Under the pieces are notes generated by a model. The model worked only from the letters and a program-made list of their open reading frames with translations. It searched no databases and was not told the DNA's origin. Both the position numbers and the translations under genes were made by a program. This document shows positions 16-14,719 of a DNA stretch of 14,719 nt, one piece after another. Position 1 is the stretch's first letter. Each line of letters begins with the position of its first letter. Origin of the DNA: Caldisericota bacterium (GTDB lineage: Bacteria; Caldisericota; Caldisericia; Cryosericales; Cryosericaceae). Location: the NCBI GenBank assembly GCA_022710025.1, contig JAKLHS010000003.1:1-14719 (forward strand), given 5' to 3'.

Positions 16-804
16 TTACTTTTCGGTCTTGTGATTTCCCTTCTTGCCCGTGCTTTTCCTGTCTACAACCAGGTATGTTTTCAGCGAGGACACAAGAGCT
101 TTCTTTGCTCCCTGCACTCGCTTGAGATCCTCCACTGACACAAACGGCCCCTGCTGCTCGCGAAATTCGACAATACGCTGTGCCAGAGCCGGGCCGACAC
201 CAGGCAGGGCATCCAGCTGCTCCGCCGTTGCCGTGTTGAGGTCGACTCTCTCGCCAAGCTTCGATGTCGATGGAGTCTCCGGCATCTCGCGCATTTCCGG
301 AGGAGTTGCCGGCAGATGACTCTGCTGGAACAGCGTTGAGATTTCCGGCTCTTCCTTTGCTGCCACCTCTTTGACCTTCTGCGCGGATTGCACCGTTTCG
401 ACGATTTCCTGCGCAGGTGCAGCCGACTGGGACTCAGCGTGCGCCGTGGCAACCCCTACCGTTTCCTCGGTTGTTGCAGGCGTTGCGCCTTCCCCGGCTG
501 GAAGCCCCAGATTTTTGCTCATAACGTCGACGATCCTATTCGTATCGAGATCGGGACGAGGAATGACGTGTATGGAGACGACCTCACCGACACGTTCCGC
601 AGCAGCGGCTCCGGCGTCAGTAGCGGCCTTGACGGCCCCGACATCGCCGCGCACGGCAACGGTTACGAGTCCCGCTCCGGAGTATCCTTTGCCGACGAGC
701 CGGACATTCGCCGATTTGACCATGGCATCGGCGGCCTCAATCGCGCCAATCAACCCATATGTCTCGATAAGCCCCAGTGCGGCAAGTTTCTCATTCTCGG
801 GCAT
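16..804 (-). CDS. BMC-H microcompartment shell protein fused to a C-terminal helix-hairpin-helix (ComEA-like) domain
   Basis: The protein is 262 residues from the ATG at 804, chosen because a perfect AGGAGG sits 6 bases upstream and because the BMC fold begins at once ([18 protein letters not shown]). The longer frame to 900 would overlap the preceding gene and adds no recognisable sequence. Residues about 5-85 are a complete BMC-H domain with the pore-loop segment GYSGAGLVT and the conserved VRGDVGAV. Residues about 95-183 form a low-complexity linker rich in Ala, Glu, Thr and Pro. Residues about 187-248 match ComEA-type tandem Hh[19 protein letters not shown], then a second hairpin in which the usual GIG is replaced by QGAKKAL. 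BMC-H proteins form hexagonal shell tiles and are normally about 90-100 residues, so this one carries about 170 extra. EutK, a BMC protein with a winged-helix tail, is a known precedent for a nucleic-acid-binding-like extension. The BMC assignment is firm; DNA or RNA binding is inference. Confidence 0.92.
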
Positions 805-841
805 GAGACTCCTCCTCAGCAAGCGTTGTGACAGGATTCGT

Positions 842-1135
842 TCACGATTTGTGGAATGTGTCGCGACCATCGACTTCGAGCGAGTCGAGGATCCCGACAA
901 TCGTGGCGTCTGCAGGAGCTTCGCCGGTCAGGTCTGTTTGCCTGCCTGCGCTTCCCAGAGCTACGAGCACAAGTTCGCCCTCGCCCGCTCCAACCGCATC
1001 GACAGCTACGATCGGTGAATCGTCCAGAAGCTCGTTCTGCACTGTTGCTCGTTGCACCACAAGGAGTTTGCGAGCAGAAAGCTTCCCGGCTTTGACAGTA
1101 GAGACCGCCGAGCCAATTACACGAGCAATGATCAT
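842..1135 (-). CDS. EutN/CcmL-family microcompartment vertex protein (BMC-P)
   Basis: The protein is 97 residues from the ATG at 1135, preceded by GGGAGG about 9 bases upstream. A start at 1162 would only prepend nine residues upstream of that ribosome binding site. The sequence follows the EutN/CcmL pattern throughout: [19 protein letters not shown] at the N-terminus, KLLVVQ, then [24 protein letters not shown], then [15 protein letters not shown]. Family members form pentamers that close the twelve vertices of polyhedral BMC shells. The next gene, a BMC-H/HhH fusion, begins 37 bases downstream with its own AGGAGG, so the two are co-transcribed. The family does not reveal which metabolic type of compartment this is, because ethanolamine, propanediol, choline and other BMCs all use related vertex proteins. 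Confidence 0.93.
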
Positions 1136-1345
1136 GATTGTTATCCTCCCACGTAAAAACAACTCATCTGCCCAAGGCTACCTGCCCAACAAGATAAAGG
1201 TATACCGTCCTTGAGTCCTCACGTCCTTCACGTGATTCCCCAGCGCATCCGCCCAGGCAATACAACAGAAAGCATTTCAGAAGGTCACGTTCATGACTCG
1301 CGGTCTGCGAGCTGCCCCGATACAGAAAACTATCGGGTCACGAGA
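1136..1345 (-). promoter_or_regulatory. Structured 5' leader of the BMC operon
   Basis: No credible ORF lies here. Three short perfect inverted repeats are visible. CCCGATA/TATCGGG (1316-1322 with 1331-1337, 8-base loop) sits at the predicted 5' end of the transcript. CTCGC/GCGAG (1297-1301 with 1307-1311) and CACGT/ACGTG (1220-1224 with 1230-1234) follow. The last 50 bases before the EutN ribosome binding site look unstructured. I recognise no known riboswitch class: the cobalamin and TPP signature motifs were not found. A regulatory function is inferred only from leader length and hairpins. Confidence 0.4.
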
Positions 1346-1430: not shown

Positions 1431-2126
1431 TCAGTCCCCTTCGAGTAACCGTTGTACTGTCGCTTCCGTCCGCGGCGCCTCGCGCACCGTCCCCCCTCCA
1501 ACGACATAGAGACGGTTGGGCAGCAAGCGGATCGTCTCCAGGTTGTGTGTCGACAGCACGACGGATTTTCCCCGGGATGTCGCCCAGGTGATCAGTCCGT
1601 GCAGCTCCCGCAAACTGGGAAGATCCAGGTGCAGCTCCGGCTCATCCATGAGCAGGACATCTGTCCACTGTGCCACAAGCCCCAGAAGCATGACCTTCCG
1701 TTGTTGCCCGGACGACATCTCGTCCAGAAAACGACTGCCGAAACCGACAACCTCGGAGAAGACCTCGGGATGGTCCGATGCAACAAGTTCGTCCATTGTC
1801 CTGAGGCGTCCCAGCGAGCTCAGTTCTATGACTTCATCCACAGTGATGTGAGACTGGGGGATTGCTGGAGACAGGAACCCGACCAGGGCTGCAAGTCTTT
1901 GCGACTCGATAGAAGCGACGGATTTCCCCTTGACGGACACCTCGCCTGCCATGGGCGGGAGAAAACCGCGGATCGTTCGCAGGATCGTCGACTTTCCTGT
2001 GCCGTTGCGTCCCACCAGAGCAACCGCTTCTCCCGGCTGGACATCAAACGAGATTCCCGTCAGAATCGGGCGGGCGCGGCCATATCCGACGGCAACGTCC
2101 CTGAGAGAAAGGAGAGCGTTTGTCAT
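1431..2126 (-). CDS. ABC transporter ATP-binding protein (cobalamin/iron-siderophore type)
   Basis: This 231-residue protein is the nucleotide-binding subunit that would power import through the adjacent FecCD-type permease. Walker A is GRNGTGKST at 39-47, the signature is MSSGQQRK at 137-144 (variant of LSGGQ), Walker B is VLLMDEPELHLD at 157-168 with catalytic Glu162, and the H-loop is STHN with His194. The Q-loop glutamine is not in its usual register; the segment reads GFLSPAIPQ, with the nearest Gln at 91. The ATG (2126-2124) overlaps the permease stop by four bases and has AGGAGG five bases upstream, which indicates translational coupling. Length is slightly below the usual 250-260 of FecE/BtuD-like proteins. 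The substrate cannot be read from this subunit. Confidence 0.93.
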   Translation of the reverse strand: MTNALLSLRDVAVGYGRARPILTGISFDVQPGEAVALVGRNGTGKSTILRTIRGFLPPMAGEVSVKGKSVASIESQRLAALVGFLSPAIPQSHITVDEVIELSSLGRLRTMDELVASDHPEVFSEVVGFGSRFLDEMSSGQQRKVMLLGLVAQWTDVLLMDEPELHLDLPSLRELHGLITWATSRGKSVVLSTHNLETIRLLPNRLYVVGGGTVREAPRTEATVQRLLEGD

Positions 2127-3160
2127 ACCGCCCTCCTTGTTTTTGTGGCGAGCCAGATCATGTACGGTGCGCCGAAAAGGGACAGCACCGTGTTCAGCGG
2201 AATCTCCGACAAACTGACCGAACGGGCCAGCAGGTCCCCGAACACGACAAGGATAGCCCCCATGAGCATGGTCAGCATGACAAACGTTCTGTCAGTGTGT
2301 CGCGTCAAAAGACGCGCCAAGTGGGGAGAGAAGAGGCCGGCGAAGCCTACGACACCCGAGGCGGCTACATCGGTCGCGGCAAGAGCGACGCTGACAAAAA
2401 GCATGCCCAGGCGCGTCCTGCGGACGTTTACACCGACGTTTGTCGCGAAATCGTCCCCTACAAGGTAGGCTCTCAGAGGACGCATATGCGTCATGACGAT
2501 GGGGACGGCGATCACCAGCCCCGCCGCAACAACCGTCACAGCAGAGCCTGAGGCCCTGTTGAGTCCCATCCAGGACCAGAAGACTGAGTGCGATAAGATG
2601 TTCGGGCGTGCAGACACCAGGATCGAGTACATGGCATTCAGCATATAGGACAGCGCAAGTCCGGACAGGAGAAACGCGAGCAGGTCATGCCCCAGACGCT
2701 TGCTGATCATCAACAGCAACACAAGAACTCCCAGGGCGCCGGCGAGCGGAGCAATCACCATCACCGGCATGATGCCCACCGCTCCGGAGATCCCGAACAG
2801 GGCAACCAGGGTGACTGATAACTGCGCTCCCCCCGACACACCGAGCAGGTAACTGTCCGCCAGAGGATTCCGAAATGCCGTCTGGAGAAGGAACCCGGAT
2901 AAACCCAAAGATGCCCCCACCAGCACCCCCAGCCCGATGCGCAGAAGTCGCAGCATGACGATTTGCGCTGCAGGGGAACTTTTGGAGCCACTCTGGGCAA
3001 GTGTTCTCAGTCCCTTCAGTACCTCCCCCGGTCGCAGACCGGAACTCCCAAAGAAAATGCTGGCACACATGACGGCGATAAGAACCACGGTCGTGCCGAT
3101 GAGCACGACCGTGTCACGCCGCCTTGTGCCGGATTCAGCGCCCGGCTGCACGCTGGACAT
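2123..3160 (-). CDS. FecCD/BtuC-family ABC transporter permease
   Basis: A 345-residue, very hydrophobic membrane protein of the FecCD/BtuC family, which forms a homodimeric channel importing iron-siderophores, haem or cobalamin. Family motifs are clear: RLLRIGLGVLVGASLGLSG with the following Q and RNPLADSYLLGVSGGAQ near residues 70-115, the coupling segment GVVGFAGLFSPHLARLL near 265-285, and the C-terminal GDLLARSVSLSEIPLN followed by LFGAPYMIWL. A basic cytosolic N-terminus precedes the first helix. The ATG at 3160 lies inside the 3' end of the binding-protein gene (26-base overlap) and has only a weak ribosome binding site, so translation is probably coupled. The product supplies the membrane pathway for the binding protein encoded upstream and the ATPase encoded downstream. 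Confidence 0.93.
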   Translation of the reverse strand: MSSVQPGAESGTRRRDTVVLIGTTVVLIAVMCASIFFGSSGLRPGEVLKGLRTLAQSGSKSSPAAQIVMLRLLRIGLGVLVGASLGLSGFLLQTAFRNPLADSYLLGVSGGAQLSVTLVALFGISGAVGIMPVMVIAPLAGALGVLVLLLMISKRLGHDLLAFLLSGLALSYMLNAMYSILVSARPNILSHSVFWSWMGLNRASGSAVTVVAAGLVIAVPIVMTHMRPLRAYLVGDDFATNVGVNVRRTRLGMLFVSVALAATDVAASGVVGFAGLFSPHLARLLTRHTDRTFVMLTMLMGAILVVFGDLLARSVSLSEIPLNTVLSLFGAPYMIWLATKTRRAV

Positions 3161-4541
3161 AACCGGCTATCAATTCCAACCCCGTGATGATGCGGGGAGA
3201 CGGACGGAAGATGTAGTCACCGATCATGTCGTAGACCTGACCGAGTTTGACTGCTTTTACTATGGAAAATGACGTCCTCCCAGTAACATCGCCTTCTCCC
3301 ATACCGGACGCCACGACGATGATGTCCGGGTTCTTGCCGATGACGAATTCCTCGGAGAGCGTCGGCCACGGTGTGCCTGTCTCGTCCGCAATGTTGGTTC
3401 CTCCTGCCACTGCGATCAGATCCGAGATAAATGTCCCCTTCCCGGCACTCATGAGAGGGCTGTTCCAGATCTCTACATAGATCGATGGTTTCCGCGGCAA
3501 TTTTGCTGCCGCTTCCCGCACCCCGGCAATGGCACGATTCATTGACAGCGCCACCTCGAAGCCGTGATCGGGAACGCCCAAGACAATGCCCAGCTGCCGA
3601 ATGGCATCCACGATCTGCGTCAGAGTCTTTGGATCATCTGCATAGACGGTGCGCCCCATCTTTTTCAGCCTGTCTACGACGGCCAACGGCGTTCCGTCCG
3701 TCACAAGGATCAGGTCCGGCGACAATACCAGCAGCTTTTCCAACGATGGGTTGTTGAATGCCCCCACGGTGGGAATCTTGACGGCTTCCTTAGGAAAATC
3801 GGTATATTCCGACGTAGCAATGATGTTGCCGCCCTGGCCCACGGCGAAGCAGTTCTCCGCAAGATTTGGTGCCAGTGTTACGAGACGCATTTTCCCCGCT
3901 TTTGCAGGAAACGTGTCATGCTGGCTGCCGAGAACGTCTGTTATCTTGGAGGGGATCTGACAGACGATGGTCGTGGCTTTGTTCTTCGTGCTCACTGTCA
4001 CGGTACCGCCACTCTGCGATACCAGCATGTTCAATATCTTGTCGGTCGCATAGAGGGTTCCCGTCTTCCCGACGACATGAAACAGATCCCTGCGCGTGCT
4101 CGCGACATACGCGCCGTCAATCAGAAGGCGCGGACCCAGTTCATATGCTCCGGTAACGGGACCTATGGCGAAATATACGGTATTCTGCGCTTTTTCAAAA
4201 CGAACGATCCCCCCCATAGCCTCGACGACGGCCCGCATGGGAAAGGTCACGCCATCCGTCGTGCTCACGGGGACGAAACCGGCTGGAAACGTTCCTGTCG
4301 TGCGCTTCGATGCAACGGTGACGGCAAACGAAGAAGAACCTGGAACGAGCTCGACGGAGATGCGACGCGTCGCAGCGGCTGCAACAGCAGAATCATTGGG
4401 CCCGAAACAAATCGGTGCCAGAAGAGATTCCAACATAGCAAGAACAAGCACAATAGCCATACGACAGGTACCGCGTGCTTTCCAGCAACGTGCCGGCCCA
4501 GCTCGCATGCCAAGCCTTCGTGCATCGACTGTTTCGTACAT
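3135..4541 (-). CDS. Periplasmic/cell-surface substrate-binding protein (TroA/BtuF fold) with copper-amine-oxidase-like stalk domain
   Basis: The start at 4541 (468 residues) is preferred because GGAGG lies about 7 bases upstream; the frame upstream of it shows no conserved sequence. After a basic N-region a hydrophobic export segment covers about 28-47, with an Ala-rich possible cleavage zone near 52-58. There is no good lipobox. Residues about 88-190 resemble the copper-amine-oxidase N-terminal-like domain (FPMRAVVEAMGG, a beta-rich repeat), usually found on exported Firmicutes-type proteins. Residues about 218-468 are the class III binding-protein domain: RLVTLAPNLAE, VGAFNNPSLEKLLVLSPDLILV, AGGTNIADE and NPDIIVVASG. 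It would capture a ligand outside the membrane and hand it to the permease, whose start it overlaps. Cobalamin, haem or ferric siderophore are possible ligands; nearby B12-related genes make a cobamide attractive but unproven. Confidence 0.88.
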   Translation of the reverse strand: MYETVDARRLGMRAGPARCWKARGTCRMAIVLVLAMLESLLAPICFGPNDSAVAAAATRRISVELVPGSSSFAVTVASKRTTGTFPAGFVPVSTTDGVTFPMRAVVEAMGGIVRFEKAQNTVYFAIGPVTGAYELGPRLLIDGAYVASTRRDLFHVVGKTGTLYATDKILNMLVSQSGGTVTVSTKNKATTIVCQIPSKITDVLGSQHDTFPAKAGKMRLVTLAPNLAENCFAVGQGGNIIATSEYTDFPKEAVKIPTVGAFNNPSLEKLLVLSPDLILVTDGTPLAVVDRLKKMGRTVYADDPKTLTQIVDAIRQLGIVLGVPDHGFEVALSMNRAIAGVREAAAKLPRKPSIYVEIWNSPLMSAGKGTFISDLIAVAGGTNIADETGTPWPTLSEEFVIGKNPDIIVVASGMGEGDVTGRTSFSIVKAVKLGQVYDMIGDYIFRPSPRIITGLELIAGYVQRAAGR

Positions 4542-12313: not shown

Positions 12314-13792
12314 CTAGTGATCCGATGGGCTTTCCACCTCTACTTCGGCAACTGCCGACAACGCTTCTTCTCCCATGAGCAGCGGCTCAGCAACAGGAAC
12401 GTGCTCTATGACTTTCCTGCACCAATCCACTGTAAAGAGCAGAATGACTGAAAGAAGCCCCGCGACGATATTGCTGACAGTCATGCCAAACCAGACTCCC
12501 TGTGATCCCTTCTGCAGCGCTATGCCGAAATACCATGCCAGAGGAACGCGCAAGCCCCAGAGACGTACCAGGTCCAGGATCATGTTGGGAATATTGTGGC
12601 CCGACCCCTGGAATGCGGATTGAACACCCATCATCAGGCCGAAAAACGGGTTCGACCACAGGAAGACCGACATGAACCGGATGCCTTCGGCAATGACCAC
12701 GGGTTGGGTCGGGATAAACGCCTTGTAGACGAACGGCGTAATGATCCTCATGAAAACGCTGGCAATCGCCATAAGCGCGACCATAGTGGTCATACCTTGC
12801 CACACGACCTTCCGGGCGCGGTCTCTCATATCCGCACCGAGCGCTTGCCCCACCATCGTGGCGATCCCTATGCCTGCGCCATCATTGATGAGAGATGTGA
12901 TACTGAACATCCGGTCACCGATACCGTAGGCGGACAGTGCAATCGTCGGGTCCGGCGTACGGCCAATGATGCCCATCAGAACAATGAACCCGAAGGATGT
13001 CCCGGACCCGCCTATCGAAGCCGGAATACCGATACGCAGGATACGCCTAGTCCATACCGTTTCGGGAATCAGATCGCGCCATGTTACCCGGAGCTTGCGC
13101 TTTCCGCTTACAAGGATCCACAGAGAGATAACTGCGGCCAGTATCTCGCACAAAACCGTCGCCAGTGCTGCACCGGCGACTCCCATTCGATCAAACGGAC
13201 CCCAGCCGAAAATCATGAATGGGTCCAGAATCACGTTCAAAACAACGGTGACAATATTGATGATCATCGGCGTAACCGTGTCACCATACGCGTTCATGAT
13301 CTGCGCGTACAACGATGTCACAAAGATCGCCGGCAAGCCCGCGAAGATAATGCGCGTATAGCTGACGGCTGCCGACGAAACTGTTGTGTCGGGTGTAAGG
13401 AGAGGAAGAACAACCGGAGCGAGGAAGATACCCACGGCCGTCATGGCAAACCCCAGCAGGATACCGAGCGACATGGTCTGCCCGGCTGCCTTTTCGGCTT
13501 CTGCATGGTTGCGCGCTCCAATGAACTGCGACACCAGCGCAAGACCGGATGAACCGAATCCCGCCGCGAACGCTATGAGAAACCAGACGACCGGACCCGC
13601 TACCTGTACGCCCGCCACAGCCTGGGCGTTTTCGGCCGTGGGCAGGTGTCCGACCCAGAAGGTATCGGTCATGTTGTACACCATATTGAGCAGTGAACTC
13701 ACCATGACCGGCCACGCAAGCCGGAACATCGTTGGCACGACGGGTCCGTGCAGAATCTCCTGTCGCGACGGCATGCTGCTACGCATATTCAT
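12314..13792 (-). CDS. MATE-family multidrug/metabolite exporter
   Basis: A complete 492-residue MATE transporter (usual length 440-480) with 12 predicted membrane helices in two homologous halves. It opens MNMRSSMPSRQEILHGPVVP then LAWPVMVSSLLNMVYNMTDTFWVG, a standard MATE N-terminus, and contains GSSGLALVSQFIGARNHAEAEKA in the first half and the paired ALSAYGIGDR, MVGQALGADM and NPFFGLMMGVQSAFQGSGHN in the second. MATE proteins expel cationic drugs or metabolites in exchange for H+ or Na+. The acidic C-terminal tail of about 25 residues is hydrophilic. The ATG at 13792 follows the stop of an upstream paralogue by 12 bases, with AGGCGG about seven bases before it, so the two are one transcription unit. 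Substrate unknown. Confidence 0.93.
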   Translation of the reverse strand: MNMRSSMPSRQEILHGPVVPTMFRLAWPVMVSSLLNMVYNMTDTFWVGHLPTAENAQAVAGVQVAGPVVWFLIAFAAGFGSSGLALVSQFIGARNHAEAEKAAGQTMSLGILLGFAMTAVGIFLAPVVLPLLTPDTTVSSAAVSYTRIIFAGLPAIFVTSLYAQIMNAYGDTVTPMIINIVTVVLNVILDPFMIFGWGPFDRMGVAGAALATVLCEILAAVISLWILVSGKRKLRVTWRDLIPETVWTRRILRIGIPASIGGSGTSFGFIVLMGIIGRTPDPTIALSAYGIGDRMFSITSLINDGAGIGIATMVGQALGADMRDRARKVVWQGMTTMVALMAIASVFMRIITPFVYKAFIPTQPVVIAEGIRFMSVFLWSNPFFGLMMGVQSAFQGSGHNIPNMILDLVRLWGLRVPLAWYFGIALQKGSQGVWFGMTVSNIVAGLLSVILLFTVDWCRKVIEHVPVAEPLLMGEEALSAVAEVEVESPSDH

Positions 13793-13804
13793 GGGGCACC
13801 GCCT

Positions 13805-14719
13805 TCAGCTCTCGCCGGGTGCTGTGATCATCTCGACCGCCTCGTCTTCTGACGAGGTCTCGACAATCGAACCATGCTCAATGACCTTATGATGCCAGTC
13901 AATAGTTGCCAGGAGAACAAGGGCAAGGGCCCCGGCCAGCACATTGCTGATGAGCATCCCGATCCAGACCCCGCGGGATCCCATGCCGACTGCGTAACCG
14001 AGCAGCCATGAAAGCGGTACACGCAGTCCCCACAGCCGCACAAGCTGCATGATCATCGAGGGCATGTTGTGACCCGCTCCCTGGAATGCAGCCTGCACAC
14101 CGTTGACGATCCCGAAAAACGGCATCGACGGCAGGAACAGGTTCATGAACAAAATGCCTTCTCTGATGATATCCGGCTGCGTCGGAATAAAAGCCCTGAA
14201 CAGCCAGGGTGCCAATATCCACAAGACAACACCCTCGCCGACCAGCAAACTGAACATCAGCGTCGTTCCCTTCCAGACTACACCATCGGCACGCTTCTGC
14301 AGATCAGCACCCAGCGCGTGCCCTGCCATCGTGGAAATGGCCAGCGACAATCCGTCGATCGCGATGAAACTGACATTGATGAATCGGTCACCGATGCCGT
14401 ATGCCGACAAAGCAACAGTGGCATTGGGGAGGCGGCCGATGATGCCCGTCAGAACGACGAAGCCGAACGATGTCCCGGAAACGCCCACCGACGCAGGCAG
14501 GCCGATCCTGAGAATGCGCTTGTACCACTGCCAATCCGGTTTCAGATCACAAGGCTGAGCGACAAGACCTCTCCTGCCACGGAAAAGGATACCCAGGGAG
14601 ATGACGGCGGCCAGCATCTGACAGATGACGGTCGCCAGCGCAGCGCCTGCAACCGTCATCCTCGCAAACGGCCCGATGCCAAAGATCATCAGTGGATCAA
14701 GAACGATATTTGCCACGAC
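13805..14719 (-). CDS. MATE-family exporter, paralogue of the adjacent gene (N-terminus beyond window)
   Basis: The frame is open to the right edge, and the visible 304 residues begin VVANIVLDPLMIFG, which corresponds to about residue 184 of the neighbouring MATE protein. Some 180 residues, the first five helices or so, therefore lie outside. Shared stretches with the neighbour include VAGAALATV, LAAVISL, RILRIG, SGTSFGF, ALSAYGIGDR, AFIPTQP and VRLWGLRVPL, all collinear, so the two genes arose by tandem duplication and have since diverged strongly. The C-terminus ends with an acidic tail (SSEDEAVEM). An internal GTG near 14716 is not a genuine start because conserved MATE sequence continues through the edge. 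Confidence 0.92.
   Translation of the reverse strand, partial: VVANIVLDPLMIFGIGPFARMTVAGAALATVICQMLAAVISLGILFRGRRGLVAQPCDLKPDWQWYKRILRIGLPASVGVSGTSFGFVVLTGIIGRLPNATVALSAYGIGDRFINVSFIAIDGLSLAISTMAGHALGADLQKRADGVVWKGTTLMFSLLVGEGVVLWILAPWLFRAFIPTQPDIIREGILFMNLFLPSMPFFGIVNGVQAAFQGAGHNMPSMIMQLVRLWGLRVPLSWLLGYAVGMGSRGVWIGMLISNVLAGALALVLLATIDWHHKVIEHGSIVETSSEDEAVEMITAPGES

Follow-up and report, generated by a model that had tools for sequence, protein, structure and literature searches.

A BMC-H shell protein fused to a ComEA-type helix-hairpin-helix domain in an ethanolamine-utilisation locus of the Caldisericota

The first gene of the window, by which we mean the whole stretch of 14,719 nucleotides analysed here from a Caldisericota bacterium, encodes a real fusion of a BMC-H shell domain with a ComEA-type helix-hairpin-helix (HhH) domain. 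The product is a genuine, conserved shell-protein variant and, by analogy with characterised shell proteins, probably has an EutK-like outward anchoring role. A preliminary description of this DNA had left room for the fusion being an already well-characterised BMC type, but the searchable literature that we covered, including the main text of the 2021 BMC catalogue (supplements and most subscription papers lay outside this scope), yielded no published description of a BMC/HhH fusion. Single members have already been named automatically as 'competence ComEA-like helix-hairpin-helix protein' or 'EutM'. The way in which cells distribute metabolosomes such as Eut has yet to be explained, and the mechanism of EutK was described as still to be determined in a 2025 Salmonella study (PMC12487888). 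Were a tile of this kind of organelle to bear a nucleic-acid-type domain unrelated to that of EutK, it would provide independent evidence that shell tiles can come with anchors of their own, and the same shell bearing two different tails would make a clean test of tile anchoring. Should the tail bind protein, it would exemplify an HhH domain adapted to the docking of an organelle; with either ligand it would offer a modular arm for engineered shells.

Architecture of the fusion protein

The fusion gene (P0001; window 16..804, minus strand; 262 aa) was defined from its open reading frame, its Pfam and NCBIfam matches and an AlphaFold model. It starts with an ATG at 804 and ends with a stop codon at 16-18, and a ribosome binding site, GAGGAGGAG (GGAGGAG-type), is apparent in the sequence 5' of the ATG (809..817, minus strand). 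An alternative start at TTG 900, giving 294 aa, was rejected because it would overlap eutN and because relatives start at the ATG. The window begins at the contig end, 15 bases beyond the stop of the fusion, and the remainder of the operon is absent from it; an assembly artefact at this contig end was rejected since five further genomes of the genus show the same architecture.

A full BMC-H tile, a linker of about 90 residues and a ComEA-like HhH tail had been proposed in the preliminary description, and all three parts stand. Residues 9-84 (window 553..780, minus strand) match the whole of the Pfam BMC profile PF00936 (profile positions 1-75), unpermuted, with an E value of 8.2e-26 and 90.2 bits against a cut-off of 24.5. 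This tile has the PduA/EutM fold and keeps the assembly residues K30, N33 and R83, the counterparts of a PduA triad that is named in the title of a structure entry and that we take to be K26, N29 and R79. The BMC and HhH Pfam matches are separated by 100 residues; residues from about 96 to 180 (window 265..519, minus strand) form a disordered linker of low identity, in which pLDDT stays below 50 over the greater part of the stretch 111-181 and AlphaFold predicts no helix, at low confidence. Residues 185-245 (window 70..252, minus strand) match HHH_3 (PF12836) far above the cut-off, at an E value of 1.5e-20 that led us to reject a chance or weak HhH match, and on TIGR00426, the NCBIfam domain model for the 'ComEA helix-hairpin-helix repeat region', the protein scores 58.1 bits and so exceeds the cut-off of 53.1. 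Hairpin 1 reads LPGVGPAL, and hairpin 2 reads VQGAKKA and not V.GIG.K, which bears out the earlier remark that QGAKKA stands in place of GIG. Residues 247-262 (window 19..66, minus strand) make up, by charge count, a C-terminal tail rich in lysine that terminates in KTEK. Pfam identified no catalytic domain in the fusion protein.

The AlphaFold model is confident over both domains, with block mean pLDDT values of 84-97 for residues 11-90 and 87-95 for residues 191-250. Because comparison of the full-length fold gave BMC-domain proteins only among the 50 matches listed, the tail was modelled (mean pLDDT 74) and searched alone. Its model superimposes on ComEA 8dss with an rmsd of 0.8 Å over 62 columns (Foldseek E 7.1e-6). 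Among solved structures ComEA is the nearest to the tail by fold and the second nearest by sequence, behind EEPD1, and the PDB matches also include PsbU, as well as Tex, PolC and other nucleic-acid proteins.

Family members, clades and the eut locus

A search of BMC-domain proteins for co-occurring HhH domains had been suggested at the outset, and it was productive: PF00936 and PF12836 are both present in 63 of the 164 distinct proteins from two protein searches, and a profile recount returned the same 63 fusions plus a fragment (P0070). Judged from these sequences, the fusion is a conserved family. We aligned 48 of the 63, and both domains are matched at E 1e-5 in 48/48 of these, which were themselves chosen as fusions. 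Sorting by hairpin-2 motif gave clade A (n=22, the window's kind), clade B (n=16, to which P0045 from Spirochaetia belongs) and clade C (n=10). The motif is G-A/V-K-K/R in clade A, G-x-N/S-K in clade B and GhG in 7/10 of clade C; this uniformity within clades is partly by construction, and the BMC-domain tree, which is independent of the hairpin, joins A with B. Within clade A, mean pairwise identity is 0.84 in the BMC domain, falls to 0.32 in the linker and rises again to 0.75 in the HhH domain (0.71, 0.25 and 0.59, respectively, across all 48 fusions), and by this measure the HhH domain of clade A is constrained and its linker is drifting. Clade B linkers carry a motif, LF[PQ]x(5-6)FP, ahead of the HhH domain in 16/16 members (P0037, P0043 and P0052, for example), and it occurs in 0/32 members of clades A and C. 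Among the BMC proteins we also noted another odd shell-protein fusion, P0151, of 371 residues with acetyltransferase domains PF13508 and PF00583.

In the BMC-domain tree (64 rows, namely 26 fusions and 38 canonical proteins, and 90 columns), the A and B fusions are separated from the EutM proteins of the same loci with branch support of 100/98. Clade C is scattered among canonical BMC-H proteins in the best tree, and P0137, which is clade C by motif, groups with A and B in a larger tree of 136 rows. These topologies suggest two or more origins of the fusion, with a single origin for all fusions not rejected as a constraint (AU p 0.187). At the pore position, presumably equivalent to PduA S40, 34/48 fusions have D or E (17/22 in clade A and 16/16 in clade B, that is 33/38 for the two, and 1/10 in clade C), but of the 231 non-fusion BMC matches examined, some of them redundant, 196 could be read at this position (35 could not), and just 1 of these has D. 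On this alignment most A and B tiles would bear an acidic ring if hexameric, and perhaps such a pore favours the ethanolammonium cation; the fusion of the window has Ala at this position (residue 44, window 673-675). One study is described as having found Klebsiella EutK itself to act as a monomer (PMC12058022).

Urocanate hydratase encoded in the window shares 90-91% identity with the enzymes of Candidatus Cryosericum odellii, hinesii and septentrionale, with one equally close match labelled Coprothermobacter sp., which assigns the organism to Candidatus Cryosericum or a close relative of that genus. We examined fifteen genomes of this genus, 62-97% complete. The fusion is present in 6 of the 15, and EutB occurs in exactly those six and in no other; none of the 39 other genomes of the phylum had the fusion (54 phylum genomes searched, including the 15). 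Further afield, full-length searches aimed at the genomic setting of clades B and C gave no fusion in 296 genomes of the phylum of a Spirochaetes record and 46 of one order in it (4 shared with the 296), nor in 400 genomes of the phylum of an Anaerolineae record; no known carrier was in these sets, so that this negative says little. The fusion was likewise missing from 78 further loci examined. We observed that a BMC protein of 218 residues from another class of the phylum (L141 1790-2443) has a lysine-rich C-terminus and no HhH match.

Within the window, the only eut genes are the fusion and, directly upstream of it, the eutN/ccmL vertex protein gene (BMC-P; 842..1138, minus strand; PF03319, E 1.3e-24). 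Further upstream on the minus strand are genes for the ATPase of an ABC transporter of iron/cobalamin type (1431..2126; Pfam and NCBIfam), a FecCD/BtuC-type permease (2123..3160; PF01032) and a BtuF-like substrate-binding protein (3135..4541; PF01497), for which BtuF is the top NCBIfam match, under its cut-off, and which has about 200 extra N-terminal residues. At 12314-14719 are tandem MatE transporter genes, the second truncated by the contig end. The genome of the window is 61.6% complete, and comparison with the loci of relatives places its remaining eut genes on contigs C81 and C1 (the window's contig being C74).

Wherever the contig continues, the fusion is adjoined by eutA (5/5 genomes) and by eutN (5/5); among the five other fusion genomes, eutA is adjacent in five and eutN in four, the fifth contig ending at the fusion. 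Three loci span eutN to an rnfC-like gene (L104, L105+L106 and L107), and their shared order begins with eutN, fusion, eutA, eutB, eutC, eutL and eutE, continues with a second eutM (in some loci), eutH, eutM, eutQ and a HAD-family phosphatase gene, and ends with a second eutB and eutC, a cobalamin adenosyltransferase gene, eutJ, BMC-T and the rnfC-like gene. These names derive from NCBIfam and Pfam matches of the L104 proteins, among which EutB, EutJ, EutL, EutA (Pfam) and rnfC exceed the curated cut-off and EutC, EutE, EutH, EutQ and BMC-T are top matches that fall under the equivalog cut-off. EutA, EutB, EutC, EutE and EutL occur together with shell genes, the composition of an ethanolamine-utilisation BMC locus, and by its gene matches the fusion-bearing locus is an otherwise ordinary eut locus without EutK_C. 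EutK_C (PF16365) was found in 0/15 genus genomes by a search that was positive in 4/14 known genomes, E. coli included, with 1 above the cut-off. No Rfam element or riboswitch was detected at the gathering threshold in six stretches of the eut region. A stand-alone ComEA gene coexists with the fusion in the genus (ComEA was found in 13 genomes and 2/15 gave none). Two further features of the locus deserve mention. It has two EutB-EutC pairs (L104 4072-6228 and 12694-14940; also in L105 and L107), which perhaps represent two ammonia-lyases, the second of which may use another amino alcohol. Between eutQ and the second eutB, L104 6345-7586 encodes an HAD-IB type phosphatase whose N-terminus looks like a signal peptide by eye; it could free ethanolamine from phosphoethanolamine extracellularly, the substrate being a guess.

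Orientation, ligand and role of the tail

We tentatively read the fusion as an outward-facing, EutK-like positioning tile with nucleoid DNA as its most likely ligand, and give this reading somewhat less than an even chance. The protein would be a dedicated, probably minor, BMC-H tile of the ethanolamine-utilisation microcompartment, and its intact fold and assembly residues suggest that the BMC domain is built into the shell. Native BMC-H termini are described as lying on the shell exterior (PMC6787980), and because of this the tail most likely faces the cytosol, by analogy with solved shells. The C-terminus would exit on the outside of the shell, and from there the HhH domain would be carried into the cytosol by a flexible arm, some 85-100 residues long, that may serve as an organelle-positioning tether like EutK in Salmonella. 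Nucleoid DNA would be bound weakly and non-specifically, strength coming from the many copies per shell, and in clade A the hairpin-2 lysines and the basic tail may compensate for the lost ComEA contact lysines.

The residues through which such a tail might touch DNA can be compared with those of ComEA, for which side-chain contacts to DNA have been modelled for two lysines and one threonine, four lysines have been mutated, and the Geobacillus K166A protein (K164 in B. subtilis) is reported to be without DNA binding in a gel shift (PMC9747964). In B. subtilis numbering, the K164 position is Leu in 48/48 fusions, the K193 position is other than Lys in 48/48, the K197 position is Lys in 1/48, and the K199 position is K or R in 38/38 A and B fusions and in 4/10 of clade C; the genus ComEA proteins kept K164, K193 and K199 in all 13 found. 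The preliminary description had placed the tail among HhH modules that bind DNA without specificity, a view that is not supported in that form, since with both mutation-tested contact lysines replaced in every aligned fusion DNA binding is uncertain. Leu at the K164 position is also present in the Thermus ComEA-related structure 2duy and in 5/7 ComEA proteins from other families of the class, and for this reason we rejected the Leu replacement as proof of lost DNA binding. Both glycines of hairpin 1 are present in 48/48 fusions, and in 41/48 another residue (22 K, 15 N, 3 S and 1 R) stands in place of the second hairpin-2 Gly. All 22 members of clade A have K at 234 and K or R at 235, and 20/22 have a net charge of at least +3 over the last 16 residues (0 and +2 in the other two), whereas the genus ComEA is without a lysine-rich C-terminal tail. 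The mean net charge of the HhH core is -0.9 in clade B and -1.7 in clade C, with little or no basic tail in either. Net charge was dropped as a sign of DNA binding because the ComEA proteins of B. subtilis and G. stearothermophilus have a net charge of -2 over the same span. Contact residues and charge neither prove nor exclude DNA binding by the tail, which from sequence could be either a DNA tether in altered form or a module for docking on protein.

The positioning reading is supported by the eutN-fusion-eutA order with which the full eut locus of the genus opens, by the co-occurrence of the fusion with EutB and by the absence of EutK_C from the genus genomes. Further support comes from the constrained HhH domain set against a drifting linker, the fit to ComEA 8dss, the external BMC-H termini, the precedents of Salmonella EutK and PhaH, and the K234, K/R235 and basic tail of clade A. 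It is weakened by the loss of K164 (to Leu) and K193 throughout, by the loss of the hairpin-2 Gly in 41/48 fusions and by clade B and C cores that are near neutral or acidic. A bolder form of this reading, which we regard as possible and would not lean on, is an ATPase-free, one-protein BMC partitioning system: a tile with a nucleoid-binding arm, in which a ComEA-type HhH domain was captured separately from EutK, possibly repeatedly (once for A and B, and in C), and contact lysines were replaced by the hairpin-2 KK and a basic tail.

The outward arm might instead dock on protein, its HhH domain having been converted from DNA binding to the binding of a cytosolic protein, or of other copies of itself so as to link neighbouring shells, an alternative that is somewhat less likely than the DNA reading. 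Other proteins with the HhH fold are known to work through protein contacts. The erasure of both DNA-contact lysines in all 48 fusions, with the fold kept nonetheless, agrees with it. At E 1e-5 the T2SSK profile matches 19/48 fusions and the PsbU profile 4/48, PsbU is also among the PDB matches of the tail, and neither of these HhH families is known to bind DNA. The K/R at the K199 position in all A and B fusions also fits, since the ComEA authors are described as suspecting K199/K201 of ComEA-ComEA contacts (PMC9747964). Yet the hairpin-2 lysines and basic tail of clade A, missing from the genus ComEA, would be odd for a pure loss of DNA binding, and no candidate partner stands out among the identified locus genes.

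Cargo recruitment and a protein-protein role inside the lumen were raised in the preliminary description; a tail directed inward, holding an enzyme or the cobalamin machinery as a lumenal cargo recruiter, is unlikely. Bridging modules do exist in eut systems, since EutQ is described as bridging shell and cargo in Salmonella (PMC12487888), and the clade B linker motif could dock; against this, native BMC-H C-termini lie outside in the shells described (PMC6787980), the locus already has an EutQ homologue, and the linker has no predicted helix, at low confidence. Least probable of the four, and very improbable in our view, is a tail that acts on RNA or another nucleic acid, as a sensor or in its handling, or that ties the expression of eut genes to the organelle, in place of positioning: Tex, PolC and other nucleic-acid proteins share its HhH fold, but the fusion has no catalytic domain, the eut region gave no Rfam element, no regulator was noticed among the identified locus genes, and a separate ComEA gene is also present.

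Comparison with known systems

With ComEA the fusion shares the fold of the tail, the hairpin 1 glycines and, in clades A and B, K or R at position 199. It differs from ComEA in having no membrane anchor or secretion signal, in its N-terminal BMC domain, in the replacement of K164 and K193 in 48/48 and in the altered hairpin 2 of A and B, and its 62.4 bits on the comE model fall short of the cut-off of 152.35. PduK, which is described as influencing the placement of Pdu compartments (PMC13052382, PMC12058022), is likewise a BMC-H protein with an extended tail; it ends in a Cys-rich motif of Fe-S type, however, and an HhH domain is not described for such tiles in the parts of these sources that deal with them. 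Caulobacter PhaH is described in a review as attaching PHB granules to DNA, non-specifically, through an HhH domain (PMC13052382). By that description it combines, like the fusion, an organelle-binding part with an HhH domain, and its targets are PHB granules and not BMC shells. From canonical EutM and PduA the A and B fusions differ as a separate BMC-H lineage with an acidic pore in most members (33/38).

EutK had been pointed to early for its nucleic-acid-like tail, and the shared plan and eut context make it the proper comparison. Both proteins have an N-terminal BMC domain, a long C-terminal extension with a small end domain of nucleic-acid-binding type, and a place in a eut locus. The fusion differs in that its C-terminal fold is the ComEA-type HhH, with no PF16365 match, in that it scores 82 bits against a cut-off of 218 on the EutK equivalog, and in that its gene lies between eutN and eutA in a genus without an EutK_C match. 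In Salmonella, Eut compartments are reported to become more static and predominantly polar when eutK is deleted, and the positively charged C-terminal domain of EutK has been proposed to bind nucleotides (PMC12487888). Because the tail is likely cytosolic, the setting is a eut locus, EutK_C is missing and the plan is common to both, EutK is the closest functional comparison for the fusion.
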